DNA from: Actinomycetes bacterium
GTDB lineage: Bacteria; Actinomycetota; Thermoleophilia; Solirubrobacterales; Solirubrobacteraceae
NCBI GenBank assembly: GCA_021820105.1
Contig: JAKAED010000004.1
Span: 1 to 62,997 of the forward strand
Direction of reading: 5' to 3'
Length of the DNA: 62,997 nt
Made by a program: the position numbers and the translations under genes. Below the pieces are notes generated by a model. That model ran no database searches and was not told where the DNA came from. It saw only the letters and a list, made by a program, of their open reading frames with translations. Within the stretch, counting starts at the first letter, position 1, and each line of letters begins with the position of its first letter. Positions 2,779-61,905 of the stretch are shown here, piece after piece.

Positions 2779-3474
2779 TCATTTCGTCTGTCGCCGCGCG
2801 CCGCCCGATTGCACACCGACCGGCCGTCCGGTCTGAGCGGCTGATAGCCCCTCGCGCAGTTGCTTGGGGGCGATGACCCCGATCACGTGGTCGACGACCT
2901 GCCCGTCGGCGTTGATGAAGAACGTTTCCGGCACTCCGGTCGCGCCGTAGCTGCGCGGCACATCGTCTCCGGGATCGTGAACGTTGGGGTAGTCGACGCC
3001 GTAAGTGTGCAGAAAGGCGAGAGCGTCTGTGGTGGCGTCCTGTTGGTCGAGCCCGACGAACAGGACGCGACCCGGTCGGCCGAGTTTGCGCCAAGCGCTT
3101 TCCAGCAGCGGTGCCTCCTGTCTACAGGGCTCACACCACGAGGCCCAGATGTTGAGCAGCACCGGGGTGCCTCGCAGCTCCCAGGTCGTAAGCCGCCCAG
3201 TCGAGAATGCCCTGGTGAGGGCTCGCCGCAGGACCGGACCGGGTTCTCCGCGCTGAAGGATGGCCAGATCAAAGGCTGGTGCGGGAGCAGTTCGCCCCTC
3301 GGCCAGGCGGCTGTCGATCGTGCTGTTGGGGGATTGTGCGGCGAGCCCGAAGGCCAGCAGGCCGATGAACAGCGCGACGATCACCACAGCGAGCCCCGAG
3401 CCGACCCGCGCCGGCCACCGGGACCGGTCTTGCGTGACGTCGTCAGGCTGCTCTGGCCGGGCTTGCTCCCGCAT
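2779..3474 (-). CDS. TlpA/ResA-family thiol-disulfide oxidoreductase
   Basis: WASWCEPCRQEAPLL CxxC motif, N-terminal TM; start at MREQARPEQ. Confidence 0.85.
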   Translation of the reverse strand: MREQARPEQPDDVTQDRSRWPARVGSGLAVVIVALFIGLLAFGLAAQSPNSTIDSRLAEGRTAPAPAFDLAILQRGEPGPVLRRALTRAFSTGRLTTWELRGTPVLLNIWASWCEPCRQEAPLLESAWRKLGRPGRVLFVGLDQQDATTDALAFLHTYGVDYPNVHDPGDDVPRSYGATGVPETFFINADGQVVDHVIGVIAPKQLREGLSAAQTGRPVGVQSGGARRQTK

Positions 3475-7934: not shown

Positions 7935-8714
7935 CTAGACGCTCTGAAACAGGTTCAGCCCCAGCTTGGCCAGCAGGTTTTGGGCGTCGATGTTGAGTTG
8001 ATAGAGCTTGCCGGTGAGAACGAGGTAGCCCATGGCTACGAGGACGAGCCCGGCGCTGATCTGGATCGCCGCGTAGTGCCGCTTGAAGAACGCAAACGCC
8101 TGCGTGGCGGCATTGAACGCGACCGCGGAGAACAGGAACGGGAGCGCCAGACCAGCGGAGTAGAAGGCCAGCAGCAGCGCACCTTTGCCGGTTTCGCTGA
8201 CGCTCGCCGCCAGGCCAAGGATCGCTCCGAGCGTCGGCCCGACGCATGGCGTCCACGCAATCGCAAACGCGGCACCCGCCACCACTGGCCCTCCCTTCCC
8301 AGCGCGCTCGATCAACCCCCGCGGCCGGACCTCCCTGTTCAACCGCAACACGAACACCGATGCGACGAACAGCACGCCCATCACGATGATCGCAACGCCC
8401 GAGATCCGGTTGAGCAACGGCCTGTTTGAGAACAGGAACGAGCCCACCGCGGTAGCACTCAAGCCCAACAGGATGAAGATCAGCGAGAACGTCCCAACGA
8501 ACGTCAAGCTGCGCAGCACGACAGGCAGGTCGACGCGAGATTTCCGCTCGCGCACGGAAGGCGTGCCAGAGACGGCCGCAAGGTAGCCGGGCACCAGCGG
8601 CAAGCAGCACGGAGAGACAAACGACACGATTCCAGCCGCGAAAGCGAGTAAGAGGCTGGGGCTACCAACCACGGCGCTCACGCGTGGCGATACAGAACAA
8701 CGAGTTTCGTGCAC
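7935..8714 (-). CDS. ccdA: CcdA/DsbD-family cytochrome c biogenesis / disulfide transporter
   Basis: LLLAFAAGIVSFVSPCCLPLVPGYLAAVSGT with multiple TMs; true start may be GTG near 8678. Confidence 0.85.
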   Translation of the reverse strand: MHETRCSVSPRVSAVVGSPSLLLAFAAGIVSFVSPCCLPLVPGYLAAVSGTPSVRERKSRVDLPVVLRSLTFVGTFSLIFILLGLSATAVGSFLFSNRPLLNRISGVAIIVMGVLFVASVFVLRLNREVRPRGLIERAGKGGPVVAGAAFAIAWTPCVGPTLGAILGLAASVSETGKGALLLAFYSAGLALPFLFSAVAFNAATQAFAFFKRHYAAIQISAGLVLVAMGYLVLTGKLYQLNIDAQNLLAKLGLNLFQSV

Positions 8715-8800
8715 CCGCGTACCGCCTAAGCGACCGAGGCGTCTACAGCCTTTGCTGGGATGAACGGCTGCCCGCGGTCCTCAGACACCTGCTCGACTGA
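8700..8800 (+). pseudogene. Remnant of the C-terminal end of a Mu-like transposon third gene
   Basis: EFRAPAYRLSDRGVYSLCWDERLPAVLRHLLD* matches FGPFGYRLSDRGVYSLCWDERLPAYPKDIRD of the ORF at 23648. Confidence 0.75.
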
Positions 8801-8864
8801 CAGGTCACGACTAAGAAGACTGCCAGAAGGCGCCAAAAACGCTGACAAACGAACGCCATTCACA
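8801..8864 (+). repeat. Mu/Tn5053-type transposon end, second copy of the 23583-23651 end
   Basis: Reverse complement TGTGAATGGCGTTCGTTTGTCAGCGTTTTTGGCGCCTTCTGGCAGTCTTCTTAGTCGTGA aligns with TGTGAAATGTCGTTCGTTTGTCAGCGGACTTGGCGGCTGTTGGCAGTCTTCTCGGTCGTGA. Confidence 0.75.
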
Positions 8865-22461: not shown

Positions 22462-23487
22462 TCACAGAACGTGGGCGATGTCGTCGCGACCGCGGCCGGC
22501 TCGGATGTAGCCGGCTAGCACGCGCTGGTCTTTGTGGCGGGTGATGTCGGCGATCTGGATGGGGTTGTGGCCATCGCGGGCAGCCTGTGTGGCGTACCCG
22601 GAGCGCAGCGAGTGGCCGGCGAACTCGCCGGGATCGAGGCCGGCGGCGCGGGCGCGTTTCTTGATGATGAGCGCGACTGACTGTGCGGTGAGAGGGGAGC
22701 TGATCGCGCCGGTACGGGTCACGCGCCGAAACACGGGACCGTCGGTCAGCCCGGCGCCGTCAAGCCATGCCCGCAGCGCCCTCACAGGGCAGGGGTTGGG
22801 CGACTGGCCGTAGACGAGCAGCAACTCCGTTCCGCGACCCTGCTGGTCGGTCTTTGATTTTGCGATCCGGACTGTCACGCCATCTGGAGAAGGGGAGAGG
22901 TCCTCAACCTTTATCGCGACCAGCTCTGAGCGCCGCAACCCGAGCGCGAACCCTACGAGCAGCAGCGCCCGGTCGCGAAGCCCGGTTGTCTGGCTGGTGT
23001 CGATGCGGTCGACCATCTCGAGGATCGGCTCTCTGAGCAGCGCGGTCTTCTTGCGAGCGGCGGCGCCATGCACGCGCGCGATCCCTTCGAGCACGGTGAG
23101 GAACGCGGGGTCGGAGGTGGGAGGGAGGTGCCCGGATTGGCGGTGCGCTCGGGCGATCGCGGCGGCGTGCCGGCGGATGGTGGAGACGCTCAGCCCGCGC
23201 TGTGCCATCGAGGTGACATAACACGTGACAACGGAGACGGGCGCCGGCAGCGGCAGGAACTCATAGCGCGCGCACCAGGTCGCGAACTGCTTCCAGTCGC
23301 TGGCGTAGGCGCGCGAGGTGTTCTCGGCCTGGGCATGCGATGCGTACTGCTTGGCGGCGTCGATCAGCTCCTCGAGCTCGGCGGCGAGGTGCGCGGGTAG
23401 CCTGGCCGGGATTCCGTCGGGCCGGTGCTCGAGCGCGAGCATTAGCTCGCCTTCGACCGTTTCGACGGGCTCGCCCTCGACATCCAT
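22462..23487 (-). CDS. Tyrosine recombinase/integrase
   Basis: LGLRRSELVAI, KSKTDQQGRG, GHSLRSGYATQAA, TRHKDQRVLAGY (R-K-HxxR-H-Y). Confidence 0.9.
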   Translation of the reverse strand: MDVEGEPVETVEGELMLALEHRPDGIPARLPAHLAAELEELIDAAKQYASHAQAENTSRAYASDWKQFATWCARYEFLPLPAPVSVVTCYVTSMAQRGLSVSTIRRHAAAIARAHRQSGHLPPTSDPAFLTVLEGIARVHGAAARKKTALLREPILEMVDRIDTSQTTGLRDRALLLVGFALGLRRSELVAIKVEDLSPSPDGVTVRIAKSKTDQQGRGTELLLVYGQSPNPCPVRALRAWLDGAGLTDGPVFRRVTRTGAISSPLTAQSVALIIKKRARAAGLDPGEFAGHSLRSGYATQAARDGHNPIQIADITRHKDQRVLAGYIRAGRGRDDIAHVL

Positions 23488-23521
23488 GCAGGCCAGTTTT
23501 CCGGGTCCGCTCGCCGCTGTC

Positions 23522-23551
23522 AACTAGCGATAACAGCACGTATCGCTAGTT
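23522..23551. promoter_or_regulatory. lox-like inverted repeat: perfect 11-bp arms, 8-bp spacer
   Basis: AACTAGCGATA-ACAGCACG-TATCGCTAGTT directly upstream of the tyrosine recombinase start. Confidence 0.75.
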
Positions 23552-23582: not shown

Positions 23583-23651
23583 TGTGAAATGTCGTTCGTT
23601 TGTCAGCGGACTTGGCGGCTGTTGGCAGTCTTCTCGGTCGTGAGGTGTCAC
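23583..23651 (-). repeat. Right end of the Mu/Tn5053-type transposon
   Basis: TGTGAAATGTCGTTCGTTTGTCAGCGGAC... just beyond the third gene stop; second copy at 8801-8864. Confidence 0.7.
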
Positions 23652-25363
23652 ACGCTCGATGCTCCATCGAGCGTGAGCTTGCTCGGCGGTGGATCGCTGT
23701 CGCGAATGTCTTTCGGGTATGCGGGTAACCGCTCGTCCCAGCAAAGGCTGTACACGCCTCGGTCACTCAGGCGGTAGCCGAATGGCCCGAAGTTCGCGAC
23801 ATAGCCGGCTTCCCTGAGGTCCTCGAGCGCAGCTCGCAGTTCGCCCCTCGCGTCGTACGGACCGGTATGACCACGCGAGACGAGGTTGGCGAGGAGCAGG
23901 ACAAGCCGGGAATGCATCCGTCCTTGGCTGGACGTTGCGTCGCGGTACTTCGGCAGTTCGTGGTTGCGGTGCTTGATCAGGAAAAGAAGGATCTCCTCGG
24001 GGCCGGCGTCCTCGTTGAGGTGCGTGGTCGATACCGAGTGGCTGTCGTTGATCGCCTTCGTGGTCAATTCGTACTCGTGTGGATAGATCCCAAGAAGAAT
24101 CCCCCGCTGGCGCAGGTCCTGGATGTCCTGGCGGACAGACGCTGGAATGTTCTGGCGGCTGATGGCCCAGTGCCCCTGTCTGAAAGGCCCGGTCAGCGCC
24201 CTGGACAGGATCCCCGCGATCAACTCAGGCGGGTCTGTGTAGCGCGCCTCCGAGCACGGCTTATCAGAGTCATCGATCGGAGGATCTGTTTCGGGTGCTT
24301 TCCACCGTTGGGTGGACACCCACACTCCCCCAGAGAACGGCGACCACGCCCAATCGCTGGTGGCGTTCCGGATTACGGCTCTAATGATCGGCCGGATCTC
24401 GGTCGGAAATTCGATGCCAGCAACCCTGGTGGCGGTCAGCTGTTCTGGCCCGAGGACGGCCAGGTGCCGGTCGGAGAGGTGCGTCCAATGCCGGAGAAAC
24501 CGGACCGCCGCGCGCCAGGGATCGATGTCCTCTAACAGCTCGTCGAGTAGCCGCTGGGTGATTGTCTGTGGTTCAAATGGCGGCCCGGTCGGCGGCGGGT
24601 CGGGAAGTGCTCTCCCGTGCCGCAAGAGCCCGACGAGGGCTCCTTTCGCGAGAATGTCGCGGAGGTGGTCATCGTGTGTTGCTGCGGCGAGGGCGAGTGC
24701 TCTGCCGAGTTCGTCGCGTGATGCCTGGGCCCACGAGCCATCGAAGAACCAGCCGATGCGAGTTGCGCTCCCATGGAAGGCGCGGTCGACGCGCAAGTAC
24801 TCGGCGTCACTGAGTTGGCAGAAGCATTGTGTTCTGAAGTCGAGCAGCTTGACTGGCTCGATCCGTGGCCACTCGATTGGTGGGCTCTCGGGAGCTGTTG
24901 GTCGTCGGGGTCCGTTGATGAACGCTTCGATCGTGGTGGTCGGCTGCACGTGAGAGCCCGTGCCGCAATACAGCAGGGCAAGATCGAGATCGCGCATCTC
25001 GGCCCACGGGCGCAGCTGTTCTAGCGCGGTTGCCGGTAGGTGCTGGGCCTGAAGGATCACAAGCTCACGGATCTGATTCGCTTCCAGCCAGACGTCGGCG
25101 TACCCCTGGTGCGGGCGTGGATCTTTCCACCTGGTGGATGCGCGCTTGCCCATGGCCCATAGGAGCTCTGCCGTCCCCAACCCGGCGCCTGGCGGCATCG
25201 TGACCCCTGGCGCGATCGCGACTGTTAGCACCGTTGTGCATGAGCGCGCGAGCCGCTGCAGCGCGTGCACGTTCGCGACATCGTCGCTGCGGTCGACGAG
25301 GATGTCGACCCGGTTCTCATGCGAGATCGGCGAGCTGAAGGATGGTATGCCGGACGACGGCAT
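23648..25363 (-). CDS. Third gene of Mu-like transposon; N-terminus resembles a degenerate TniB-type ATPase core
   Basis: RELVILQAQHLPATALEQLRPWAEMRDLDLALLYCG aligns with the TniB Walker B region; same strand, overlaps tniB-like gene; start uncertain. Confidence 0.6.
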   Translation of the reverse strand: MPSSGIPSFSSPISHENRVDILVDRSDDVANVHALQRLARSCTTVLTVAIAPGVTMPPGAGLGTAELLWAMGKRASTRWKDPRPHQGYADVWLEANQIRELVILQAQHLPATALEQLRPWAEMRDLDLALLYCGTGSHVQPTTTIEAFINGPRRPTAPESPPIEWPRIEPVKLLDFRTQCFCQLSDAEYLRVDRAFHGSATRIGWFFDGSWAQASRDELGRALALAAATHDDHLRDILAKGALVGLLRHGRALPDPPPTGPPFEPQTITQRLLDELLEDIDPWRAAVRFLRHWTHLSDRHLAVLGPEQLTATRVAGIEFPTEIRPIIRAVIRNATSDWAWSPFSGGVWVSTQRWKAPETDPPIDDSDKPCSEARYTDPPELIAGILSRALTGPFRQGHWAISRQNIPASVRQDIQDLRQRGILLGIYPHEYELTTKAINDSHSVSTTHLNEDAGPEEILLFLIKHRNHELPKYRDATSSQGRMHSRLVLLLANLVSRGHTGPYDARGELRAALEDLREAGYVANFGPFGYRLSDRGVYSLCWDERLPAYPKDIRDSDPPPSKLTLDGASSV

Positions 25364-26051
25364 CGTCAATTCTCGGTTTGCCAGCGCGCTCGCAGAGCTG
25401 CAGCGCGTTGTGAGTGAACACGGCCCAGGACCGCATGTATCCACGCGTGACTTCGTTGTCGATAGCAGTCAAGAGCTCCGGCTTCACCCCTTCATAGATC
25501 GGGTGATAGGTCGGGATCAGCTTCAGGATGTCTTCTTGGCTGAGCGGCGCGAACCTCACGGCTCGTGCGAGCCTCGACTTCAGCATCGGCTCTCGGTCTA
25601 TGACCTCCCAGGCACCATTGCCCCCGTCGAAGACGAGCCCAAACTGGGTGCGATCGTCGTCGTGCAGGAGCCGCAGATCGTCAAACGATGTCGGCGCGAG
25701 GTTCTGTGCCTCCTCGAAAATGAGCAGCCGCGGCTCCTCGGCGAGGATTGGCAACAGCCGTAGAGCGATTTGTGACCTGCTCGCACGGGTCTCCCGTCCG
25801 GTCAGCGCCTCCCACAGTGCTGCGACGACGAACCGTTCCGTGGGACGGCGCAGCACCACCACCTTCACCACTGGCACAGAGACACCGGCCAGGGCCTCCG
25901 CGATCGCGAACGTCTTCCCGAGCCCGGCCAAGCCATGGATTGCGACGATCGACCGGTGGGTCACGGAGTCCAGCACGGCCTCGCGGGCAAGCAGGAAATT
26001 CCGTGTGATCAGCACCTTCGCTTCCGGGACGTTGAGGAAGTGACCGGTCAT
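25317..26051 (-). CDS. TniB/TnsC-like AAA ATPase of Mu-type transposon
   Basis: VAIHGLAGLGKTFAIAEAL (Walker A), PRLLIFEEAQNLAP (Walker B); ATGA-type overlap with transposase. Confidence 0.85.
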   Translation of the reverse strand: MTGHFLNVPEAKVLITRNFLLAREAVLDSVTHRSIVAIHGLAGLGKTFAIAEALAGVSVPVVKVVVLRRPTERFVVAALWEALTGRETRASRSQIALRLLPILAEEPRLLIFEEAQNLAPTSFDDLRLLHDDDRTQFGLVFDGGNGAWEVIDREPMLKSRLARAVRFAPLSQEDILKLIPTYHPIYEGVKPELLTAIDNEVTRGYMRSWAVFTHNALQLCERAGKPRIDDAVVRHTILQLADLA

Positions 26052-27550
26052 CGGATGCCCCGGCCGCCGTTGTTGCGGCGGGGCTTCGCGGCCGTGTTCA
26101 GTTCCTCAGCAAGGCCCAGGGCCCCGAGCAGCTCATCGGACTTTCGGTCCGTGAGCCCCTTGCGGACTCGCGAGCTGCGCTTCGCAGATCTGTCTGTAAT
26201 CACGGTGATGTCTGCCGCCGGCGTCGTGCCGGTCAGTGGCTCGGTCCTGGCCTTTGCGGCTCGGCTTGCTTTGGACTTTTCCTTCGCGGCAGTGCGCTTC
26301 GCCGCTTGCCGGTACGCGATCACCTCCTCCTTTCCATCCCGACCGAGCTGCCCCGCAACCGTGGCGGTACAGACGTGGCCCGTTTCGTCGAAGACCTCGA
26401 TCGATCGCTTGTCGTGGGGCATGTAACGGACCTGCACTGTTTTGCCGTGGAGGTCGTGCAGCTTGCCGGCCACGTAGTACTCATTGCCGTGCCGAATCCC
26501 CTTTGCTTCGACGATGCGGGTCTCGTCGGCCATCATCATCCAACGCAACCGCTCCGGCTCGACGACATCCAGGACGGTGCTTGATGTGGCCCACTTCTGC
26601 TCGGGGATCAGGCCGCCGAGCGAGGAGTGAATGCGGGTGCGGTTGTAGTGCTCGACATACCTGCGGATCTCCTCTTGCAACTCGGCCAGAGTGAGCGGTC
26701 GACGCTGGGCGTAGAGCTTTCCATCGGCGCGTCGTGGTCCTCCGAGGTAATGCGGGAGTGTCGCGATCAACTCCTCGCGGATCGTGAGATGAAGCCTCTC
26801 GACCTTTCCTTTCTGATACGGCGAGTACGGGGCCGTCTTGCTCACCACAAACCCAACCTCGGCAGCAGCCCGCGTGACGGCGGTCGCCAGGAAATCCCGG
26901 CCACCATCAAACCTGACCACGTGCGGAACCCCGCCCCACGGCCCACGCTCCGGGTCGATGACGATCGCCTCGCGCAGCGCCGCCAGCACCTCGGCCGAGG
27001 ACGGGTACAGCGACAGAGCCCAGCCCATGATCAGCCTCGAGAAGCCGTCCTCGATCACGGTCATCCACGGACTCTGGAGACGTGAGCCGCGCAGCGGCAC
27101 GACATGGAGGTCGAGTTGCGCATGATCGGCTTCCCAGACCTCGTTGCGTGCCTCTGGCTCCCAGGTCAGGTAGATCGAGTTGCGCCGCCAGCCCTCCTCG
27201 CCGTCCCGCGCGTACCCGCGTGTGGCCGCCGACAGTTGGCGCTTGATCGCGCGCCGGTACACGCTCTCTGAGCGGACAGGCGCGCCCGCTTGCCTCAGCA
27301 TGCTGTGGGCACGCGAGGAATTGCCGGCGGACATGAAGTACGCCTGGACGGCCTCCGGGGTGAGGCTCCACGGCTCGCGCTTCTTAGGCGAATAGCCGCC
27401 GACTGCCATCCAGCGGTGTATGGATCGCTCACTCACCCCCAGGCTGACGGCGGCGAGCCGGACCGCCCCCTTCGGAAGCCTCCCCTGCTGTTTGAGGGCG
27501 AGCAAACGCAACACGGCAGCGTTGCGCCGTTCAACGACGTACGGATTCAC
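26048..27550 (-). CDS. Mu/TniA-type DDE (rve) transposase
   Basis: EVWEADHAQLDLHV, VVRFDGGRDFLATAV, SPYQKGKVERLHLTIREEL DDE motif; N-terminal HTH. Confidence 0.9.
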   Translation of the reverse strand: MNPYVVERRNAAVLRLLALKQQGRLPKGAVRLAAVSLGVSERSIHRWMAVGGYSPKKREPWSLTPEAVQAYFMSAGNSSRAHSMLRQAGAPVRSESVYRRAIKRQLSAATRGYARDGEEGWRRNSIYLTWEPEARNEVWEADHAQLDLHVVPLRGSRLQSPWMTVIEDGFSRLIMGWALSLYPSSAEVLAALREAIVIDPERGPWGGVPHVVRFDGGRDFLATAVTRAAAEVGFVVSKTAPYSPYQKGKVERLHLTIREELIATLPHYLGGPRRADGKLYAQRRPLTLAELQEEIRRYVEHYNRTRIHSSLGGLIPEQKWATSSTVLDVVEPERLRWMMMADETRIVEAKGIRHGNEYYVAGKLHDLHGKTVQVRYMPHDKRSIEVFDETGHVCTATVAGQLGRDGKEEVIAYRQAAKRTAAKEKSKASRAAKARTEPLTGTTPAADITVITDRSAKRSSRVRKGLTDRKSDELLGALGLAEELNTAAKPRRNNGGRGIR

Positions 27551-31082: not shown

Positions 31083-32075
31083 TCAGTGCGCGTGGGTGAT
31101 CGGCGCGTTGTGTTGCTCGGCGGCTTCGATCTGCAGCAGCTCGCCGCCTTGGTGGTCGACCTGCAGGGTCGTGTGTTGAAGGTCAAAGCGGTCGTGCAAC
31201 ATCCGTTCGATCTCGCGGCGGGTGTCGTGGCAGTCACCATCGGAGCGAACGAGGATGTGTGCGGAGAGGGCCGGGAAGCCGGAGGTGACCTCCCACACGT
31301 GCAGGTCATGGACCTCCACGACATCCGCGACGGCGGCCATTGCCTGGCCGATCTCGTCGGGGTCAAGGCCACGCGGTGCGGCCTCGAGGAACACGCGGCC
31401 GGAATCGCGCAACAGTCCGTAGGCGGCTTTGAGCATGATCGCGGCGATCAGCAACGAGGCGATCCCATCCGCACGATGAAAGCCAGTGATGAGGATCACA
31501 GCGCCGGCGATCGCGGTCGCGATGAACGCGAACAGGTCAGTGAGGATGTGCTGGAACGCGCCCTCGACGTTCATGCTCTGGCGGTTGGCTCTGCTGAGCG
31601 TCCAGGTCGCTGCGAGGTTCACGACGATCCCGAGCAGCGCGACGATCAGCACAGCGCCACCGGCGACCGCGGGCGGGTTGATCAGCCGGCGGATGCCCTC
31701 GTAGATGATGAACAACGCGAGCACCAGCAGCGTCGCGCCGTTGAACTGGGCGGACAGCACCTCGGTGCGCTTGAACCCGTAGGTCATCGCGCCCTTCGCG
31801 GGGCGCGCGGCGAGCCTCACGACCCACATCGACAAGGCGATCGCACCGGCGTCGGTGAGCATGTGCGCCGCGTCTGAGAGCAGCGCCAAGGATGAGGCGA
31901 GGATCCCGACCGTGACCTCGACGGCCATGAACCCAAGGATCAGACCCAGCGCGACAGCGAGCTTCCCGAAGTCAGCATCGGCGCTGACGCCGTGAGAATG
32001 CCCGGCATGGTCATGGCTGCCATGACCATGCTCATGACCGGCGTGATCGTGATCGTGCGGTCGGGTGTCTGCCAT
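31083..32075 (-). CDS. CzcD-type cation diffusion facilitator
   Basis: His-rich N-term (HDHDHAGHEHGHGSHDHAGHSH), LLSDAAHMLTDAGAI. Confidence 0.9.
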   Translation of the reverse strand: MADTRPHDHDHAGHEHGHGSHDHAGHSHGVSADADFGKLAVALGLILGFMAVEVTVGILASSLALLSDAAHMLTDAGAIALSMWVVRLAARPAKGAMTYGFKRTEVLSAQFNGATLLVLALFIIYEGIRRLINPPAVAGGAVLIVALLGIVVNLAATWTLSRANRQSMNVEGAFQHILTDLFAFIATAIAGAVILITGFHRADGIASLLIAAIMLKAAYGLLRDSGRVFLEAAPRGLDPDEIGQAMAAVADVVEVHDLHVWEVTSGFPALSAHILVRSDGDCHDTRREIERMLHDRFDLQHTTLQVDHQGGELLQIEAAEQHNAPITHAH

Positions 32076-32809
32076 CAGTTGCAGCACTCCTCCTGGCAGC
32101 TATCGCCCAGAACATCGAGTCCGGGGACGGTCGCGCAGCCGCAAACCTCGCCGTGCCATGCCTCGAGGCCTTCGCGAACGGCAAGTGCGGCGATCGCCAG
32201 CGCGATCACCGGGTCAAGCCACCACCAGCCTGCGATCGCGTTGGCGGCCAGCCCGCCCAGGACACCTGCGGCCATGTAGGCGCACAGCAGGTTCTGCGCG
32301 CCCTCACCCGCCGTAGCGGCGGACCCGAGCCGGGCACCGATCTGCTGTTTGGTGTAGCCGAGTAGCGGCATGACTGCGATGCTCGAGACCGCCAGCCCGA
32401 TCCCGACCCAGCTCGTCGACGGGTGCTCTGTGTTCGCGAGCGTGCGGATTGCGTCCTGAGCGATGTAGGGCGCGAGGAGGAAGAAGCTGATCGCGACGAG
32501 CTTCTGTGCCCGCTGCTCGGCACTGTCGGAGAGGCGACGGTTGCCGGTGAATCGCCAGATCACGATCACCGACGCCATCCCCTCGATCACCGAGTCAAGC
32601 CCGAACCCAAGCAGCGCGACCGACCCGGCCGCCGCTGCGGCGGTGATCCCGACAGCACCCTCGACCGTCATCCACGCCAGGCTGACCCATGCCAGCACTT
32701 TCGCGCGACGGATCAGCCGCTCGCGTTTGCGGTCCGGCCCGACAGTCGGCCGGGACGCTGGGGACAGGCCAGCGTGTGCGAGAACAGACAGCTCGACCGG
32801 GGCGCTCAC
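32075..32809 (-). CDS. Cation transporter (CDF-like)
   Basis: GSVALLGFGLDSVIEGMASVIVIWRFTG; C-terminal SCQEECCN. Confidence 0.8.
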   Translation of the reverse strand: MSAPVELSVLAHAGLSPASRPTVGPDRKRERLIRRAKVLAWVSLAWMTVEGAVGITAAAAAGSVALLGFGLDSVIEGMASVIVIWRFTGNRRLSDSAEQRAQKLVAISFFLLAPYIAQDAIRTLANTEHPSTSWVGIGLAVSSIAVMPLLGYTKQQIGARLGSAATAGEGAQNLLCAYMAAGVLGGLAANAIAGWWWLDPVIALAIAALAVREGLEAWHGEVCGCATVPGLDVLGDSCQEECCN

Positions 32810-33159
32810 TGCGCGCGCTCCGCGGCCGGTAGGTGCGCGTCAAGCAGCTGCGATCCGGCTGGGGTCAGGGAGTAGAACACGACCTTCCCATCGCGCCGCG
32901 ACACGGTCAGCCCGGCGAGCCGCAGCGCGCGGAGATGATGGCCGACCAGGTTCTCCGCCTTCCCGACGATCCACGCAAGATCACACACGCACAGCTCCTC
33001 GCCCTCGCGCAACGCCACCGCGAGCGCCAGACGCGTCCGGTCACTCAGCGCCTTCGCGCGAGTTGCAGCGGCGTCGACAGCGTCGAGGTCAAGCCGCATA
33101 CGAATCCCCTCCGCCCGGGGAAGGTCGAGGCAAAGCAAGTCACAGCGGTCATCAGCCAT
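32806..33159 (-). CDS. ArsR/SmtB-family metalloregulator with CDLLC N-terminus
   Basis: MADDRCDLLCLDLPRAE...EELCVCDLAWIVGKAENLVGHHLRALRLAGLTVSRRDGK. Confidence 0.88.
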   Translation of the reverse strand: MADDRCDLLCLDLPRAEGIRMRLDLDAVDAAATRAKALSDRTRLALAVALREGEELCVCDLAWIVGKAENLVGHHLRALRLAGLTVSRRDGKVVFYSLTPAGSQLLDAHLPAAERAQ

Positions 33160-33289: not shown

Positions 33290-33323
33290 GTTTGTAGCGA
33301 TACTCCGTCTTATCGCGACAAAC
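33290..33323. promoter_or_regulatory. lox-like inverted repeat: 13-bp arms (12/13 match), 8-bp spacer
   Basis: GTTTGTAGCGATA-CTCCGTCT-TATCGCGACAAAC just upstream of the tyrosine recombinase at 33346. Confidence 0.75.
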
Positions 33324-34377: not shown

Positions 34378-34821
34378 TCAGTCGCTCTCGGGATCGTCGG
34401 CGGCGCTGCCGGTGAAGAGCTCGGGATGATCGCGCCTCGCTTCCTCGACATCGACCCAGTCGCCGTTCACCCAGACAGTCTGCCTGCCGGCTGGCTCAAA
34501 GGCGTAGATCGCCTTGCTCCGATGGCCCTCACCTGTCCAGCCGAGCTCTGCCATCGCCGCGGCGACACGGTCAGAGACCATCCCCTCCTCGCACGCACGT
34601 GTGCAATAGAAGTCGAAGTAGTCCTCACCGCGGCCCCGCAAGCTCGCAATCAGACCGGCGGAGTAGCGCCAGGAGCCATGCCACGCAGTGCCGTCGATGT
34701 GGGTCCAGTCCGTGTTGCAGAGCGCGCAATACATCTCATCGGCAAAGCCGTCATCCCCGCGCAACCGACCGGAAAGCGCCTGCAGGTCAAACTCAAGATC
34801 TCGGGCCTCGTCCTCACTCAT
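34378..34821 (-). CDS. Hypothetical protein with Cys pairs (CALC, CTRAC)
   Basis: DEMYCALCNTDWTHIDG...YFDFYCTRACEEG. Confidence 0.5.
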   Translation of the reverse strand: MSEDEARDLEFDLQALSGRLRGDDGFADEMYCALCNTDWTHIDGTAWHGSWRYSAGLIASLRGRGEDYFDFYCTRACEEGMVSDRVAAAMAELGWTGEGHRSKAIYAFEPAGRQTVWVNGDWVDVEEARRDHPELFTGSAADDPESD

Positions 34822-34970: not shown

Positions 34971-35924
34971 GTGCTTACGAAACGGCCGCTTCTGGATACC
35001 GCCGCTGATCAGGCTCTGTTCGTTTCAGACGGGTCACGCAGTCGGGCGGTCAGGGAGGCTCTGCGTGATCGCAACACGCTGATCGTCGGGGAGGCGGGCT
35101 CTGGGAAGACGAGCATCCTCTACCGAGTCCGCGCCGGTGCGCGCGAGAGTTCACGGTCACCGGCCGTGCTGATGGTCAACGCACAGCACGCCGACACGGG
35201 TCGCGATCTTGTCGATCTGATCCTTCGCGAAGCCGAGAACGAAGGCTGGGTCGAGGCAGCCGCTCGGCCAGCTCAGGATGATCTGTTCGGTCCGGTCGCG
35301 CAGATCCGACGACTCTCCGGCGCCCCGGACCGCAGCCTGGTGCTGATAGATGACCCCGACCCCGGGCAGGCGCTGACCCTGTTCGGACGGTTGCGCGACG
35401 AGCTCTTCCAGATCACCACCCGCTTCGCGGTGACCGTGACCGCGACCACGTTTCAACGCATCAACAAGCCGCCGGCTGATGTGTTCTTCGACACGACCGT
35501 TGAGCTTGAGCCGCTCGACGTAGACGCAGCGTTCGAGCTCCTGCGGGTTCGCAAGGAGCGCGGCGAGATCCCCGGTCAGGTGCTGTGGCCGACGCGCGCG
35601 ATGCACCCCCGCGCGATCCTGCTTGACGCGCAAGCGGGCCCCGTGGGCCGCCGCCACGACCGCGCACTCCAGGCGCACCTGACCGGTCTGGCCGAGCGGA
35701 CCGCCGGAGCGACCGGTGCGGGCCTTCTATCGGAGATCTGGGGACGCGGCGCTCTCAGCGCGAGTGACCCCGAGCTGCAGCGAAGCCTCGGTGTGACCCG
35801 CGCGAGGCTCACCCAACTCCTGAAAAGCCTCGAGCGCGCCGAGGTGCTGATCTCCTTCCCGCAGGCAACCCCCGGGGCGACGGGGCGACCGAAGACCCTG
35901 TACGACATCAACGCGACACGGTGA
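34971..35924 (+). CDS. AAA+ ATPase with C-terminal wHTH-like domain
   Basis: LIVGEAGSGKTSILYRVR (Walker A), SLVLIDDPD (Walker B), LGVTRARLTQLLKSLERAEVLISF. Confidence 0.75.
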   Translation: MLTKRPLLDTAADQALFVSDGSRSRAVREALRDRNTLIVGEAGSGKTSILYRVRAGARESSRSPAVLMVNAQHADTGRDLVDLILREAENEGWVEAAARPAQDDLFGPVAQIRRLSGAPDRSLVLIDDPDPGQALTLFGRLRDELFQITTRFAVTVTATTFQRINKPPADVFFDTTVELEPLDVDAAFELLRVRKERGEIPGQVLWPTRAMHPRAILLDAQAGPVGRRHDRALQAHLTGLAERTAGATGAGLLSEIWGRGALSASDPELQRSLGVTRARLTQLLKSLERAEVLISFPQATPGATGRPKTLYDINATR

Positions 35925-40662: not shown

Positions 40663-41610
40663 CTAGGGCGTTGTCCTGGTTGTGAGCTGTTCGGATGCTT
40701 CGATGCTGAGCAGCTCGCCGCCTTCGTGCTCGACCTGGAGAGTGGTGTGTTCGATGTCGAAGCGGTCGTGTAGCAGCCGCTCGAGTTGCCGCCTGGCTTC
40801 GTGACAGTCGTGCTCGGGGCCGACGAGGACGTGAGCGGAGAGCGCAGGGAAGCCGCTCGTGACCTCCCAAACGTGAAGGTCGTGGACTTCGCGGACATGC
40901 GGGATAGCAGCCATCTCCTGGCCGATCGCATCCGGGTCGAGACCCTCCGGTGCGGCCTCCAGGAAGATGCGGCCCGAAGCCCAGACGAGCTGGCCGCCGG
41001 CCCGAAGCATTGGGATCGCGATCACCAACGAGGCGATCGGATCGGCGCGATCAAAGCCGGTTAGCAGGACGATCGCCGCTGCCGCAGCGGTGGCGAGCGA
41101 GGCGAACGCGTCTATCAGGTTGTGCTTGAACGCACCCTCGACGTTCAGGCTCTGGCGGTTCGCGCGGGCGAGCGCGGCGGCGGCCGCACCATTGACCAGC
41201 AGGCCGGCCAGGCCGAGCACGAGCACCGGCCACGCGTCGACCGCCGGCGGGTGGATCAGCCGCACGATTCCCTCGTAGACAATGAAGCAGGCGAGGATCA
41301 GCAGCGTCAGGCCGTTCACCTGCGCAGAGAGAATTTCTGCCCGCTTGAAGCCATAGGTCATCGCCCCTTTTGCGCGTCGCTGCGCGAGCCGCGCGGCCAC
41401 CAGGGCGAGACCGATCGCGCCGGCATCGGTGAGCATGTGCGCCGCATCGGAGAGCAGCGCGAGCGAGTGCGCGAGCGCACCGGCGAAGACCTCGACCAGC
41501 ATGAAGCCGGCGTTGATGACCAGCGCGACTGCAAGCCATTTCGTATCGGCGTTCGCGGACACGCCGTGGGAGTGGCCGTGTCCACCCGTGTGGTCGTGGT
41601 CGTGAGCCAT
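40663..41610 (-). CDS. CzcD-type cation diffusion facilitator
   Basis: MAHDHDHTGGHGHSHGVSANADTKWLAVALVINAGFMLVEVFAGALAHSLALLSDAAHMLTDAGAI. Confidence 0.9.
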   Translation of the reverse strand: MAHDHDHTGGHGHSHGVSANADTKWLAVALVINAGFMLVEVFAGALAHSLALLSDAAHMLTDAGAIGLALVAARLAQRRAKGAMTYGFKRAEILSAQVNGLTLLILACFIVYEGIVRLIHPPAVDAWPVLVLGLAGLLVNGAAAAALARANRQSLNVEGAFKHNLIDAFASLATAAAAAIVLLTGFDRADPIASLVIAIPMLRAGGQLVWASGRIFLEAAPEGLDPDAIGQEMAAIPHVREVHDLHVWEVTSGFPALSAHVLVGPEHDCHEARRQLERLLHDRFDIEHTTLQVEHEGGELLSIEASEQLTTRTTP

Positions 41611-41619
41611 GAAGCTCTC

Positions 41620-42345
41620 CTACGAACCGGCGCAGCAGTCATCGCCGCAGTCCGAAGCCGATCCCTCGAGCCCCGGAACGGTGTGGCACTCACATTCCTC
41701 ACCGCGCCACAACTCCACCCCCTCCTTGGCCGCAATCGCAGCGATCGCCAGCGCCGCGAGCGGGTCGATCCAGGCGACACCGGCCCCGGCGGCGATCACG
41801 GCGATCAGCGCGGCGAGCGCCTGGGCGGCGCACAGCAGGTTCTGGACCCCTTCGCCCGCGGTCGCGCCGGAGTCGAGCCGCTGCCCGAGCCGCAGCTTCG
41901 CGAACCCCAGCAGCGGCATCAGCACGATGCTCGATGCGGTCAGCGCGATCGCGAGCGGGGCCGCATTCGCGCGGGTGCCATTGATCAGCCGGTCGGCAGC
42001 CTCGTACAGGAAGTACGGGGCGAGCAGGAAGAAGCTCGCGGCGACCAACCGTTGCGCTCGGCGCTCGGCGTGCTCTGAGAGCTTGCGCCGCCCTGTGAAG
42101 CGCCAGATCACGATCGCCGAGGCGAGCCCCTCGACCGCCGATGACGCCGCCCAAGTCAGCACGCTGATCGAGTTGGCCTCAACGCCGGCGAGCACCCCAA
42201 GCGCGCCCTCAAGCGTCATCCAGACGAGGCTCGCCCAGGCCAGCAGCTTCGCCTGCCGCGCGGCGCGCAACCAACCGTCATCGCGCTCCCCTCCCGGACG
42301 CGCCGACACAACCGGAAGCGACGCCGGAGAAGTCGCCGGACTCAC
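41620..42345 (-). CDS. Cation transporter (CDF-like)
   Basis: Paralog of 32075 ORF; C-terminal ASDCGDDCCAGS. Confidence 0.78.
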   Translation of the reverse strand: MSPATSPASLPVVSARPGGERDDGWLRAARQAKLLAWASLVWMTLEGALGVLAGVEANSISVLTWAASSAVEGLASAIVIWRFTGRRKLSEHAERRAQRLVAASFFLLAPYFLYEAADRLINGTRANAAPLAIALTASSIVLMPLLGFAKLRLGQRLDSGATAGEGVQNLLCAAQALAALIAVIAAGAGVAWIDPLAALAIAAIAAKEGVELWRGEECECHTVPGLEGSASDCGDDCCAGS

Positions 42346-42701
42346 GCGACAACCCCCGTGTCTGCCTCGCTGATCGCGGAAAGAAGCCGCTCGCCTCGCT
42401 CCGTCAGCGTGTACAGAACCATCTTTCCCTCACGGCGAGAGGCAACCAGCCCAGCGGAGCGCAACATGCGCGCATGATGTGAGACGAGCTTGTCCGAGCG
42501 CTCACACACCCAAGCCAGATCGCACACGCACAGCTCGCCGCCATCACGTAAGGCCAGGGCGACTGCCAGCCGGGTCGGATCGGCCAGCGCCTTCGCGGTC
42601 CCGGCGGCCAGCTCGAGCTCGGCCAGCGGCTGACGCGAGCGCCGCAAGGCCTCCGCACGCGGAACGTCCAGGCACAGCAGATCGCAGGTGTCGTCAGCCA
42701 C
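42342..42701 (-). CDS. ArsR/SmtB-family metalloregulator with CDLLC N-terminus
   Basis: MADDTCDLLCLDVPRAEALRR...ELCVCDLAWVCERSDKLVSHHARMLRSAGLVASRREGK; paralog of 32806 ORF. Confidence 0.88.
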   Translation of the reverse strand: MADDTCDLLCLDVPRAEALRRSRQPLAELELAAGTAKALADPTRLAVALALRDGGELCVCDLAWVCERSDKLVSHHARMLRSAGLVASRREGKMVLYTLTERGERLLSAISEADTGVVA

Positions 42702-57369: not shown

Positions 57370-57422
57370 CGAACTTGTGTTCGCTGACATAGCCGCGCTG
57401 TCATTCTGCTGACGTTTCACAC
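57370..57422 (-). repeat. Tn3-family element end abutting tnpA stop
   Basis: Reverse complement TGTGAAACGTCAGCAGAATGACAGCGCGGCTATGTCAGCGAACACAAGTTCG; contains tnpA stop. Confidence 0.65.
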
Positions 57423-60400
57423 CCGGGCGCCAGCACGGATGCCTCCGCGTCGAGCGCCGGCGGGCGGATGCTCAGCCGGGCAGTCATGTCGAGATTGACC
57501 TCGCCGTAGGGCAGCACGTGCGTCCAGAACAGTGGCGTCAGGCCGCGGCGGTCGGCTGAGGTGAGGAGGTCATCCCAGGCTCGTTCGGCGAGGACGTCCT
57601 GAAGCATCAGCGTGTTGATGTACACCAGCGCCGCTTGCAGGATCCGCAGACAGAGCACGAAGAGTTCCTGCTCGTCGCGGCGGTTGCTCTGCATGTCGCC
57701 GCGTTTGCCGTAGGCCAGGATTCCGTTGGCGCTGTTCCAGGACTCGATCACGTTGAGGCCCTCTTCGATCTCGCGTTGCAGGTCTCGCGATCGGAGGTAG
57801 CGGGCGATGAAGATCGTTTTCTGCGCCCGGCCGACCTCTAGCATCGCCGCGTAGGTCGGGTGCGACGCGTTGCGGGTGAAGCGCCGAAGGATCGCCTCCG
57901 TTGACGCGGTTCCGGTACGGATCGCGGTGGCGTACTTGATCATCTGGTCGTATTGCTGGGCGACGATGTCCCAGCGGATCGGCCGGGTCAGCGCCGGGGT
58001 CAGGTGGGGATACGCGTGAGGTTCGCCGGGGCTGACCCGATAGAGGCGTGCCTTGTTGATCTGTTTGATCCGTGGAAGCAGATCGAACCCGAGCAGCCGC
58101 GTGATCGCGAACCCGATCTCTGACTGGCCGTGGGAATCGGTGTAGTTGGCCTGCAAGCTCATAGTGGTGTCGTGGCGCATCGCGCCCTCGATCATCGCCG
58201 CGACCTCGGAGGCGCTGCAGGAGATCAGCTGCGAGTGCACAACCATCGACTTCTTCTCGACATGCCAGTAGATCAGCACCCCGCGGCCGTGGTAGCGCGA
58301 GTGCCATTCGGTCAGGATGTTTTGATCCAGAGCCCGGATGTGCGTGGAGTCTGATGCGACGGCGGTCGACCCTGCACCCCACAACCCCTGGTTGCGGGCG
58401 GCGAACGTCGCGTCGGCGATCTGAACTGCGATCGAGCGGGCTGCCTCGATGGTCAGGTAGCGCCGGCGGGCGTAGCGGATCTCATCCTCGCTGTGACCGT
58501 GCGCGCCGGAGGAGACCGCGCGGATGCCAGTGTTCGTGCCGTACGCGTAGATCGCGAGCAGCAGTCGCTCCGCGAGGACATCGGAGCGGATGCTGCCGCC
58601 GCCGGCTACCGAGGTGACCGTGTCCAGGCAGAGCGTTCGCAGCACGGTCTCCTTGAGCATGTCGATCAGCGGGACCGTGCCCCAGCGCCGCAGTACCTCT
58701 GCCTTGACGCGCCGTAGGTTCCGCGGCTCGCGCTGCGCGTCAAGGGGAGTGAGCTTGATCGCGCCGGAGCGCCGCTCCGCGATCGAGAGCCAGTCGAGCT
58801 TGGGTAGCGCATCGTTGAGCGCCTGAAGCTCGCTGCGCATCTCCCCGCGCAGCTCGGCGATGAACTCGCCGGGATCTAGCGGCTTGCGAAGCGTCCGGTA
58901 GTGCTCCACGCGACGCTCGGCGAAGTCGACCGGCAGATCCTCGTCAGGGTTGCGCCAGCGGTCGGCGCCTACAACCCAGATCTCCTTGCAGCGCAGCGAG
59001 TCGCGCAAAGCCTGGAACGTCGCGACCTCATACACCATCCGTACTACCCGCCGACGCCCGCGGGTGTCCTCGCGGTAGAGAATGTCCTCCCAGTCGCCGC
59101 GCAGCCCGCGGTGCATCGGGATGACCTCCCCGAGCGGGTAGTAGGTGATGTTGCCCGCGCCGGCGAATCGCCGGATCAGCTGGAGCGCCTCGATCACGGG
59201 CTGATGGGCGGAGCTGCTGCGGAAGTCCAGCACGTCGAGCAGCCGGATCAGCCCTCGCCGGTAATGGTTGGTGTAGGACGCCTTCAGCGTCGTCTGCACC
59301 GTGCGGCGGTACAGCGGCCCGCTCGTCTTGAACTCGTTCACAAGATCACGCAGAGTCTGCTCACCGCCCGTGACGGCAGGGAAAACGACACGGCGGACGG
59401 TTCCGTCCGGGGTATTCAGCGACGCCTCGGCGACCCGGAAGAGGATGTTCTCCTTGCCGTGAACACGTTTGAACTCGGCGACGAGCTCATTCGTGACCTT
59501 CCTCTCAGCCCGCGCGGCGACGCGATGCACGGTCGAGATCAACAACTCAACGAGCGTGTCGGAGATCTCCCGCTCGCGCTCACGCAGCAACGCCGCCAGC
59601 ATCGCCAACCGCAGCTCCTCCGGATGGGTCCGCAGATGCGACGGCGACTCCACCGCCGCCCGCGCCCTCCAGCCCGCGACAACACTTGGCGATACATCCT
59701 TGAAAACGTGCGGGCCGATGCCGACCGCGCGAACGCCCAGCAGCTTCGCGATCTCGACCAGCATCGTCTCCAAGCTCACGCTGCCCGCCGCCGCCTTGAG
59801 CCTCCCCAACGCGAGCCAATCGTCCGCTGGCTGGTCGTCAACGGCGTCCTCGACATCGTCGACGGCAAGGAGCGCCGCGATCCTGAGCTTCGACTCCCGA
59901 TCGAGCCGACCCGCGACCTGCGCAGAGACCGCCTCCTCACCGATGCGCAGAGCCGACCGAACCACCCGGTCGGCCCGCCCCTCAGACGGCGGTTCGATTC
60001 GCTCGAGATGACACCGCGCCAACAGCTCCTCGCGCACCCGGTCCGGCCGGCGCTCCCGCTCGGTGACGTTGTCCGCAAGCCAAGCGGTGAGCTGGTCGGC
60101 GTCAGCCACGGTGCACTCCCGGAAACCCAGCCGCTCGCGGATCTGCGCGCGATGACGCTCGACCGTGCGCCCCCTCCACTCATACGACGCCAGATCCGAC
60201 GGTACGGCGCGCAGCTGCCGAGCGACGAACTCAACCACTCCGTCAGGGAGCTCAGACACGCCCGACGGAAACCGACCGTGGCGCGTGTAGAACTTCAGCA
60301 GCAGCGCAAAGCCCAACCTCGTCGCGCCATGCTTGGCCTCCACCAGCACGCGCTCGTCATCGAGCACCGTCCAGTGATCAACAAGCTCATCCAGATCAAG

Positions 60401-60511
60401 GGAGGCTGATGCAGCCACAGCACATCTGTAACGGCGAGCGGGCGGCCTGGCAAGCAGCCACCTCGCAAACTGCGGACTCAGAACACCAAAGAGCCGACGT
60501 GATGAGGCCAC
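57401..60511 (-). CDS. tnpA: Tn3-family transposase
   Basis: About 1000 aa; AVASDSTHIRALDQNILTEWHSRYHGRGVLIYWHVEKKS, ANYTDSHGQSEIGFAITRLLGFDLLPRIK; start uncertain (GTG near 60418 possible). Confidence 0.92.
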   Translation of the reverse strand: MASSRRLFGVLSPQFARWLLARPPARRYRCAVAASASLDLDELVDHWTVLDDERVLVEAKHGATRLGFALLLKFYTRHGRFPSGVSELPDGVVEFVARQLRAVPSDLASYEWRGRTVERHRAQIRERLGFRECTVADADQLTAWLADNVTERERRPDRVREELLARCHLERIEPPSEGRADRVVRSALRIGEEAVSAQVAGRLDRESKLRIAALLAVDDVEDAVDDQPADDWLALGRLKAAAGSVSLETMLVEIAKLLGVRAVGIGPHVFKDVSPSVVAGWRARAAVESPSHLRTHPEELRLAMLAALLREREREISDTLVELLISTVHRVAARAERKVTNELVAEFKRVHGKENILFRVAEASLNTPDGTVRRVVFPAVTGGEQTLRDLVNEFKTSGPLYRRTVQTTLKASYTNHYRRGLIRLLDVLDFRSSSAHQPVIEALQLIRRFAGAGNITYYPLGEVIPMHRGLRGDWEDILYREDTRGRRRVVRMVYEVATFQALRDSLRCKEIWVVGADRWRNPDEDLPVDFAERRVEHYRTLRKPLDPGEFIAELRGEMRSELQALNDALPKLDWLSIAERRSGAIKLTPLDAQREPRNLRRVKAEVLRRWGTVPLIDMLKETVLRTLCLDTVTSVAGGGSIRSDVLAERLLLAIYAYGTNTGIRAVSSGAHGHSEDEIRYARRRYLTIEAARSIAVQIADATFAARNQGLWGAGSTAVASDSTHIRALDQNILTEWHSRYHGRGVLIYWHVEKKSMVVHSQLISCSASEVAAMIEGAMRHDTTMSLQANYTDSHGQSEIGFAITRLLGFDLLPRIKQINKARLYRVSPGEPHAYPHLTPALTRPIRWDIVAQQYDQMIKYATAIRTGTASTEAILRRFTRNASHPTYAAMLEVGRAQKTIFIARYLRSRDLQREIEEGLNVIESWNSANGILAYGKRGDMQSNRRDEQELFVLCLRILQAALVYINTLMLQDVLAERAWDDLLTSADRRGLTPLFWTHVLPYGEVNLDMTARLSIRPPALDAEASVLAPGCETSAE

Positions 60512-60936: not shown

Positions 60937-61905
60937 ATGATCACAAAACGCGCTCTTCTTGATACTGCGGCCGACCAGCGCCTTCTAGTGTTGGACAGAT
61001 CGCGGCGCCTGGCGGTTGAGACTGCCCTTCAGTCGCGTAACACCCTGCTTGTCGGCGAGTCGGGCTCGGGAAAGACGACGCTCCTGTACCACATCAGGGC
61101 GAAAGCGTCCGAGGCTCCCGACGGGAGAGCGCGCGCCGTCTACGTTGATGCGAGACGGGCGGAGACACCGCGACTGCTCGCGGACAAGATCATTGCTTCT
61201 GCTGTCGAGGCTGAGTGGATCCCGCCGGCGGCTACCCCCGCGCCTGATGACCCGTTCGGCTTGGAAGCCCAGCTCGCCCGCCTCGCCGCCTGTCCGCAGG
61301 GCTCGATGGTGCTGCTGGACGATCCGGACGAGGCGCAGGCGCGCATTCTGTTTGGCCGTATGCGGGATGTCCTGCTTCAGCTTGACGGTGCCGTTTGGTT
61401 CACGGTGGCGGTGACTCCTGAGGTGCAGAAGAAGGCGTTGAGCCGTCCGCCCGCAAACGTGTTCTTCGACACGACCATCGAGCTGCTGCCTTTTGGGCCC
61501 GACGATACGTTTGAGATGCTGCGTCGCCGCAAGGACCGCGGCGAGATTGATCAGATCATCGACTCTTCGCAGCCGCTGCAGCCGCGCGTCATCCTGTTGG
61601 ACGCGGAGGCGGGCCCGTCAGGGATCCGCCACGACGCTGAACTTCAGCATGAGCTGCTCACGCGAGCGCAGAAGGCGGCTGGACGTGCCGGTGCGATGGT
61701 GTTCTCGGAGATTTGGAGTCGAGGGGCCGCCAGCGGGAGCGACGAGTCGCTGTTGAGCACGATTGGGGTGACCCGCACACGCCTGGGCAAGATCCTTCGA
61801 GCGCTGGCCGCGGAGGGTGTGCTCACCGTTGTCAGCCCGCCTGAGTCGGAGAGCCGCGGCCAGGGCAGGCCGAAGATCTACTACGACATCAACCGGGCGC
61901 CGTGA
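60937..61905 (+). CDS. AAA+ ATPase with C-terminal wHTH-like domain (paralog of 34971 ORF)
   Basis: MITKRALLDTAADQRLLVLDRSR...LLVGESGSGKTTLLYHIR...SMVLLDDPD...IGVTRTRLGKILRALAAEGVLTVV...GRPKIYYDINRAP. Confidence 0.75.
   Translation: MITKRALLDTAADQRLLVLDRSRRLAVETALQSRNTLLVGESGSGKTTLLYHIRAKASEAPDGRARAVYVDARRAETPRLLADKIIASAVEAEWIPPAATPAPDDPFGLEAQLARLAACPQGSMVLLDDPDEAQARILFGRMRDVLLQLDGAVWFTVAVTPEVQKKALSRPPANVFFDTTIELLPFGPDDTFEMLRRRKDRGEIDQIIDSSQPLQPRVILLDAEAGPSGIRHDAELQHELLTRAQKAAGRAGAMVFSEIWSRGAASGSDESLLSTIGVTRTRLGKILRALAAEGVLTVVSPPESESRGQGRPKIYYDINRAP

Follow-up and report, generated by a model that had tools for sequence, protein, structure and literature searches.

Cre acting at loxP resolves dimers of the P1 plasmid. 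Sites of the same kind have been sought beside other Cre-type genes (Nigri/nox, Panto/pox, Vika/vox), and two such systems were validated experimentally (PMC4957104). A further relative is TnpS, which together with TnpT resolves Tn3 transposons of the Tn4651 type at the rst site (PMC7157771, PMC3606827). The Cre-type systems sit on phages or plasmids, whereas the putative pair considered here lies on a contig of a draft bacterial genome. Within the whole stretch of DNA that was analysed (62,997 nucleotides, below referred to as the window) we find a gene for a predicted Cre-type tyrosine recombinase, YR2, preceded by a lox-like site (Table 1).

A site beside a Cre-like gene is a known design, and YR2 with its site adds another example. 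The likeness to Cre/loxP, nox, pox and vox extends to the type of enzyme, the 34-bp length with its 13-8-13 layout, the asymmetric spacer and the intergenic position near the gene. However, the identity of YR2 to Cre is low (46 bits, E 3e-11), and the arms of its site are different, with CGATA/TATCG on the inside. TnpS/TnpT-rst is also similar, since the recombinases are homologous (TnpS of pZM3H1 is 36% identical to YR2 over 310 amino acids) and a palindromic core site with N8 adjoins tnpS. The gene of pZM3H1 is preceded by ACGCACGTTA-N8-TAACGTGCGT, and both there and at the pJB37 homologue a site of the same geometry lies between tnpT and tnpS. But that system sits in Tn3 transposons, whereas no link to a Tn3 transposase was found for YR2, and because a search of the window returned no TnpT homologue we do not place YR2 in it. 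The window does contain a Tn3-family transposase frame at 57-60 kb, but a search for transposon ends enclosing YR2, which would tie the two together, found none. With XerCD/dif the locus shares a tyrosine recombinase and a site of roughly 28-34 bp with a centre of 6-8 bp, but the YR2 system would use a single enzyme on near-symmetric arms.

Table 1. Features of the window discussed in the text.
Feature	Position	Strand	Remarks
YR1, paralogous tyrosine recombinase	22462..23523	-	PF00589; 67% identical to YR2
YR1 lox-like site	23522..23551		AACTAGCGATA-ACAGCACG-TATCGCTAGTT, perfect 11-8-11
Putative tniQ-side transposon end	23583..23650		31-36 bp from YR1 site; inferred, partner end not found
Probable TniQ	23648..25444	-	by position, 0 Pfam matches; 3' end recurs as remnant 8705-8797
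TniB-like AAA ATPase	25317..26051	-	Pfam search
TniA-like DDE transposase	26048..27550	-	rve + Mu-transpos_C
YR2 lox-like site	33290..33323	+	arm GTTTGTAGCGATA 33290-33302, spacer CTCCGTCT 33303-33310, arm TATCGCGACAAAC 33311-33323
YR2, predicted Cre-type tyrosine recombinase, 343 aa	33346..34377	+	PF00589 3.5e-14; catalytic residues aligned
147-aa protein, function not assigned	34378..34821	-	convergent with YR2
Tn3-family transposase, long open frame	57401-60511		no resolvase recognised beside it

The YR2 reading frame is intact and begins with TTG. Its best match among solved structures (PDB) is Cre, over residues 41-329 with the score given above, and a profile of 12 YR2 relatives matches Cre at 5e-35 versus XerD at 4e-21. 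In the alignment with Cre, the active-site residues (R-K-H-R-H/W-Y) are matched by R187, K214, H294, R297, H320 and Y329 of YR2, and these are invariant or nearly so among the relatives. An assignment as XerC or XerD was rejected, since the scores against the curated models (58.9 bits for XerD, cut-off 329.6; 44.2 bits for XerC, cut-off 335.15) are far under the cut-offs and Cre is a better match than XerD. Relatives with E at or below 1e-30 occur in only 6 of 396 genomes evenly sampled from the phylum, while 1102 plasmid records contain relatives at E 1e-20; we therefore regard this as a family of mobile elements and not as a housekeeping Xer.

The neighbours of YR2 deserve a few remarks. A decayed relative of the recombinase on another contig of the same genome (C262, 49894-50747, L141) likewise converges on a gene homologous to that of the 147-aa protein, hence the latter may travel together with YR2. 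Further along are paralogous AAA/NACHT-type ATPases (34971-35924 and 60937-61905, 50% identical, with a remnant at 806-904), and a palindrome directly precedes each of them (34939 and 60843). A cation-efflux/ArsR operon is duplicated in the window (31109-33058 and 40683-42597, 71-77% DNA identity), and the YR2 site adjoins the first copy only.

The original prediction described the YR2 site as a 34-bp 13-8-13 element with arms complementary at 12 of 13 positions, 22 bp before the TTG start of the recombinase (33346), and its sequence, coordinates and distances proved to be exact. The inner GCGATA-N8-TATCGC, said to be common to this site and the one at 23522, indeed occurs only at these two places in the window (23527-23546 and 33297-33316) and in none of 100 dinucleotide shuffles of it. 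The palindrome by itself is not decisive, because two other 13-8-13 palindromes with at least 12 of 13 complementary positions exist in the window, at 3035 and 60669. As a putative recombination site, its significance rests on the position, the shared core and the conservation in relatives. We agree less with the description of the two sites as independent instances with the same position and geometry. There are two sites, but YR1 and YR2 are paralogues and so not fully independent; the position is only roughly the same, as the TTG start of YR1 (23523) overlaps its own site by 2 bp (the ATG at 23487, 36 bases downstream, is a likelier start); and the YR1 site, if laid out as 13-8-13, has 11 of 13 arm positions complementary. 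Its spacer, read in the direction of the gene, is CGTGCTGT, different from that of the YR2 site.

The check proposed with the prediction was to align the upstream regions of homologues. We gathered relatives by protein similarity alone from genomes, plasmids and viral contigs, for which an alignment query was needed (a single-protein query gave one locus in genome contigs and none in viral contigs), and counted 97 non-redundant loci, each with at least 300 bp upstream. A site was scored if CGATA-N7..9-TATCG, with at most one mismatch, lay between -500 and +50 and its outer arms paired at 4 or more of 7 positions. By this definition 31 of the 97 loci have a site, versus 0.4 loci from shuffled upstream regions, and the density is 31 sites per 53 kb upstream versus 16 per 629 kb elsewhere in the same loci. 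If the core is the only criterion for picking sites, outer-arm complementarity averages 4.68 of 7 positions; shuffling the partners lowers this to 2.73, and the highest value among 2000 shuffles is 3.32. The outer-arm sequences differ between loci while their complementarity is kept. The symmetry of the spacers is at chance level and their length hardly varies, with N8 in 24 sites and N9 in 17. Inverted arms that co-vary and flank a short, asymmetric spacer are what one expects of a core site of the Cre or Xer type. The site accompanies the recombinase across many phyla and gene contexts, at positions from -26 to about -1100.

Homologues without the motif, the first outcome named against the prediction, do exist, but that outcome does not apply in any straightforward way. 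About two thirds of the relatives have no detectable CGATA-core site within 500 bp; some of these have another palindrome or other arms, or a site farther upstream, before a toxin-antitoxin-recombinase operon. On the whole the expectation of a lox-like family with diverged outer arms and different spacers holds, since relatives chosen by protein similarity show the same site design upstream, and coincidence is indeed unlikely given the absence of the core from shuffles, the family-wide enrichment and the co-variation of the outer arms.

The viral contigs behave differently. Among 25 viral records with the canonical palindrome, 24 encode no recognisable recombinase of the family, and within the DNA examined a family recombinase accompanies the canonical palindrome in 4 of 23 viral loci (scrambled control 0). 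With so few recombinases at viral palindromes, the motif alone is no predictor of the gene. For GTCCGATAA-N6/7/8-TTATCGGAC the numbers of viral contigs are 6, 17 and 6, respectively (L152-L174, L180-L185), with none for the scrambled control, and most of these records have no family recombinase. Phages may thus carry lox-like sites that are used in trans by the enzyme of another element.

Comparison of closely related loci adds evidence of another kind. Two genomes of the same family as the source, G385 and G081, carry recombinases 61% identical to YR2, and their sites have exactly the 8-bp spacer of the YR1 site. Starting at the site and running past the recombinase, 7.3 kb of their DNA agree at 99.8%, whereas across the site they hold tni-type transposon genes that have diverged (67% in the alignable parts); the switch falls at the outer edge of the left arm. 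Roseomonas mucosa AD1 has four co-resident plasmids (L176-L179) with a toxin-antitoxin and recombinase arrangement and one site each, with nearly identical arms (CGTCCGCTAA/TTTGCGGAC). Of these, unnamed6 and unnamed5 are 94.7% identical up to the right arm, with no match beyond until the recombinase gene, while unnamed6 and unnamed4 match almost perfectly from the site onward and clearly less well upstream. In three viral pairs (L049/L051, L095/L099, L064/L067) homology breaks within a few bases of the site edge. The pJB37 (TnpS) group has no breaks at the site; its breaks are inside the recombinase or at the end of the element. Conservation of a site can alone draw the ends of BLAST alignments near to it, but this leaves the drop from 99.8% identity to unrelated sequence unexplained. 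In our opinion, natural strand exchange appears to have taken place at the site in relatives.

Taking these observations together, we consider it very probable that 33290-33323 is the recombination site of the Cre-type enzyme YR2 and that the two together form a resolution module on mobile DNA. By the mechanism of Cre, two YR2 monomers would bind the inverted arms of a site, two identical sites would synapse, and strands would be exchanged within the central 6-8 bp, the asymmetry of the central bases setting the direction. With one site per element, recombination would be possible only once the element is duplicated in one molecule, be it as a replicon dimer or as a cointegrate from replicative transposition; YR2 would then delete one copy, which is resolution. 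That YR2 binds and recombines its own site, and does so in resolution, is what we infer. The YR1 and YR2 sites are each single-copy in the draft genome (89% complete, 264 contigs, so that a second copy could be missing). Since a single site would recombine only when its element is duplicated, resolution of dimers or cointegrates would be the likeliest role, and the single copies favour it over integration or inversion. Against a role in resolution, no complete transposon or plasmid can be seen around YR2, and the gene may be a relic.

Around YR1 the gene order is tniA-tniB-(tniQ)-site-tyrosine recombinase. This resembles Tn5053/Tn402 (tniABQ-res-tniR) in having a TniA/TniB module that adjoins the site; however, TniR is a serine resolvase, while YR1 belongs to the tyrosine recombinases. 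We entertain, as a tentative suggestion, that the adjacent tniABQ transposon is resolved by YR1 at the YR1 site, the tyrosine enzyme having taken the place of TniR, and that the YR2 pair is a second copy that became detached. Such a view would refine rather than contradict the reading of the YR2 pair as a resolution module. A TniA/TniB pair adjoins the site in G081 and G385 as well, and hybrids with swapped tni halves would account for the junction between these two genomes. On the other hand, a recombinase of this kind is missing near other relatives of TniA, a search for terminal inverted repeats around both parts found none, and a putative transposon end sits between tniQ and the site. The last point comes from the 3' end of the tniQ-like gene, which together with about 60 bp past it recurs at 8705-8860: 23583-23650 and the copy at 8798-8860 are 83% identical, and the homology ends at about 23583-23588. 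On the simplest reading there is apparently a Tn5053-like transposon end here, the element having inserted beside the YR1 site. We searched for the far end of this transposon and did not find it, and no convincing pair of terminal inverted repeats surrounds either the tni module or YR2. Tn5053-like transposons hunt the res sites of Tn3/Tn21-type (serine) resolvases (PMC7765201, PMC12217951); an insertion beside the site of a tyrosine recombinase, if true, would extend the known res-site hunting. As a separate matter, the pTi plasmid of Agrobacterium tumefaciens Sta004 (L128) has TniB and TniQ genes beside repABC, with a recombinase of the family and the corresponding site some 2 kb away.

It is unlikely, in our view, that YR2 is an integrase and its site an attP or attachment hybrid, by which an element would enter or leave a partner site elsewhere. 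Tyrosine recombinases do often act as integrases, and the junctions in R. mucosa and in G081/G385 do join different flanks at the site. But the 89%-complete draft genome has no partner site for integration or inversion, that is, no second site of the same spacer, and no direct repeat of the site flanks the locus. Moreover, exactly one site was counted on every R. mucosa AD1 plasmid examined, and the simple, lox-like arms come with no evident arm-type sites such as lambda-like integrases use.

Even less probable is that the palindrome serves purely as a transcriptional operator, without recombination, either of YR2 itself (autoregulatory) or of the divergent ArsR gene (32806-33159). It is true that the dyad lies between divergent genes and within the promoter region of YR2, and that ArsR proteins bind dyads. 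Nevertheless, we rejected an ArsR operator because no such palindrome is present in the promoters of two paralogous ArsR genes, one near 42.6 kb and the other near 48.5 kb. The site also follows the recombinase across phyla and contexts, including positions upstream of toxin-antitoxin operons, and homology breaks at it in several species. Conservation of the motif as an operator upstream of unrelated genes was the second outcome named against the original prediction, and it does not apply straightforwardly either: the ArsR paralogues speak against it. The viral records lacking a family recombinase do show that the motif is not confined to the surroundings of these genes. A dual role is plausible, as the res region of the Tn3 family holds promoters controlled by resolvase binding (PMC7157771), and autoregulation of YR2 through occupancy of the site in its promoter region is possible. 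That the palindrome is a chance, non-functional one is hardly credible, for although the window holds other hairpins that are similarly perfect, the exact core is common to the site of the paralogue and absent from shuffles, and the site is enriched throughout the family.

The spacers of the sites vary in a way that may bear on the resolution of co-resident elements. In R. mucosa, unnamed6 and unnamed4 (L147/L148) differ at 5 of 6 spacer bases and at only one further base in the 1566 bp from the start of the site, and the four AD1 plasmids have three spacers among them with nearly the same arms. Genome G372 carries two recombinases on one contig, 91% identical in DNA, with near-same arms and different spacers. 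YR1 and the G081 enzyme are not co-resident and are 59% identical, and all 8 spacer bases are common to their sites. One could speculate that the spacer is a fast-changing identity tag, while constant arms serve a shared enzyme, and that in this way co-resident replicons, or elements that are paralogous, would each be resolved without fusing with one another. We are inclined to doubt this more than to believe it. Two of the four R. mucosa plasmids have a common spacer, as do three Agrobacterium plasmids from different strains, and exchange of modules at the site, without any selection, could yield the same pattern.

Irrespective of the fate of this last suggestion, what began as one palindrome has become a collection of recombinases and their sites that spans phyla and in which the arms co-vary. 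Such a set is of use in studying DNA recognition by Cre-type enzymes and as a source of new orthogonal recombination tools. It also indicates that plasmids and transposon modules do exchange DNA at these sites in nature, and spacers as identity tags of replicons are a testable idea.
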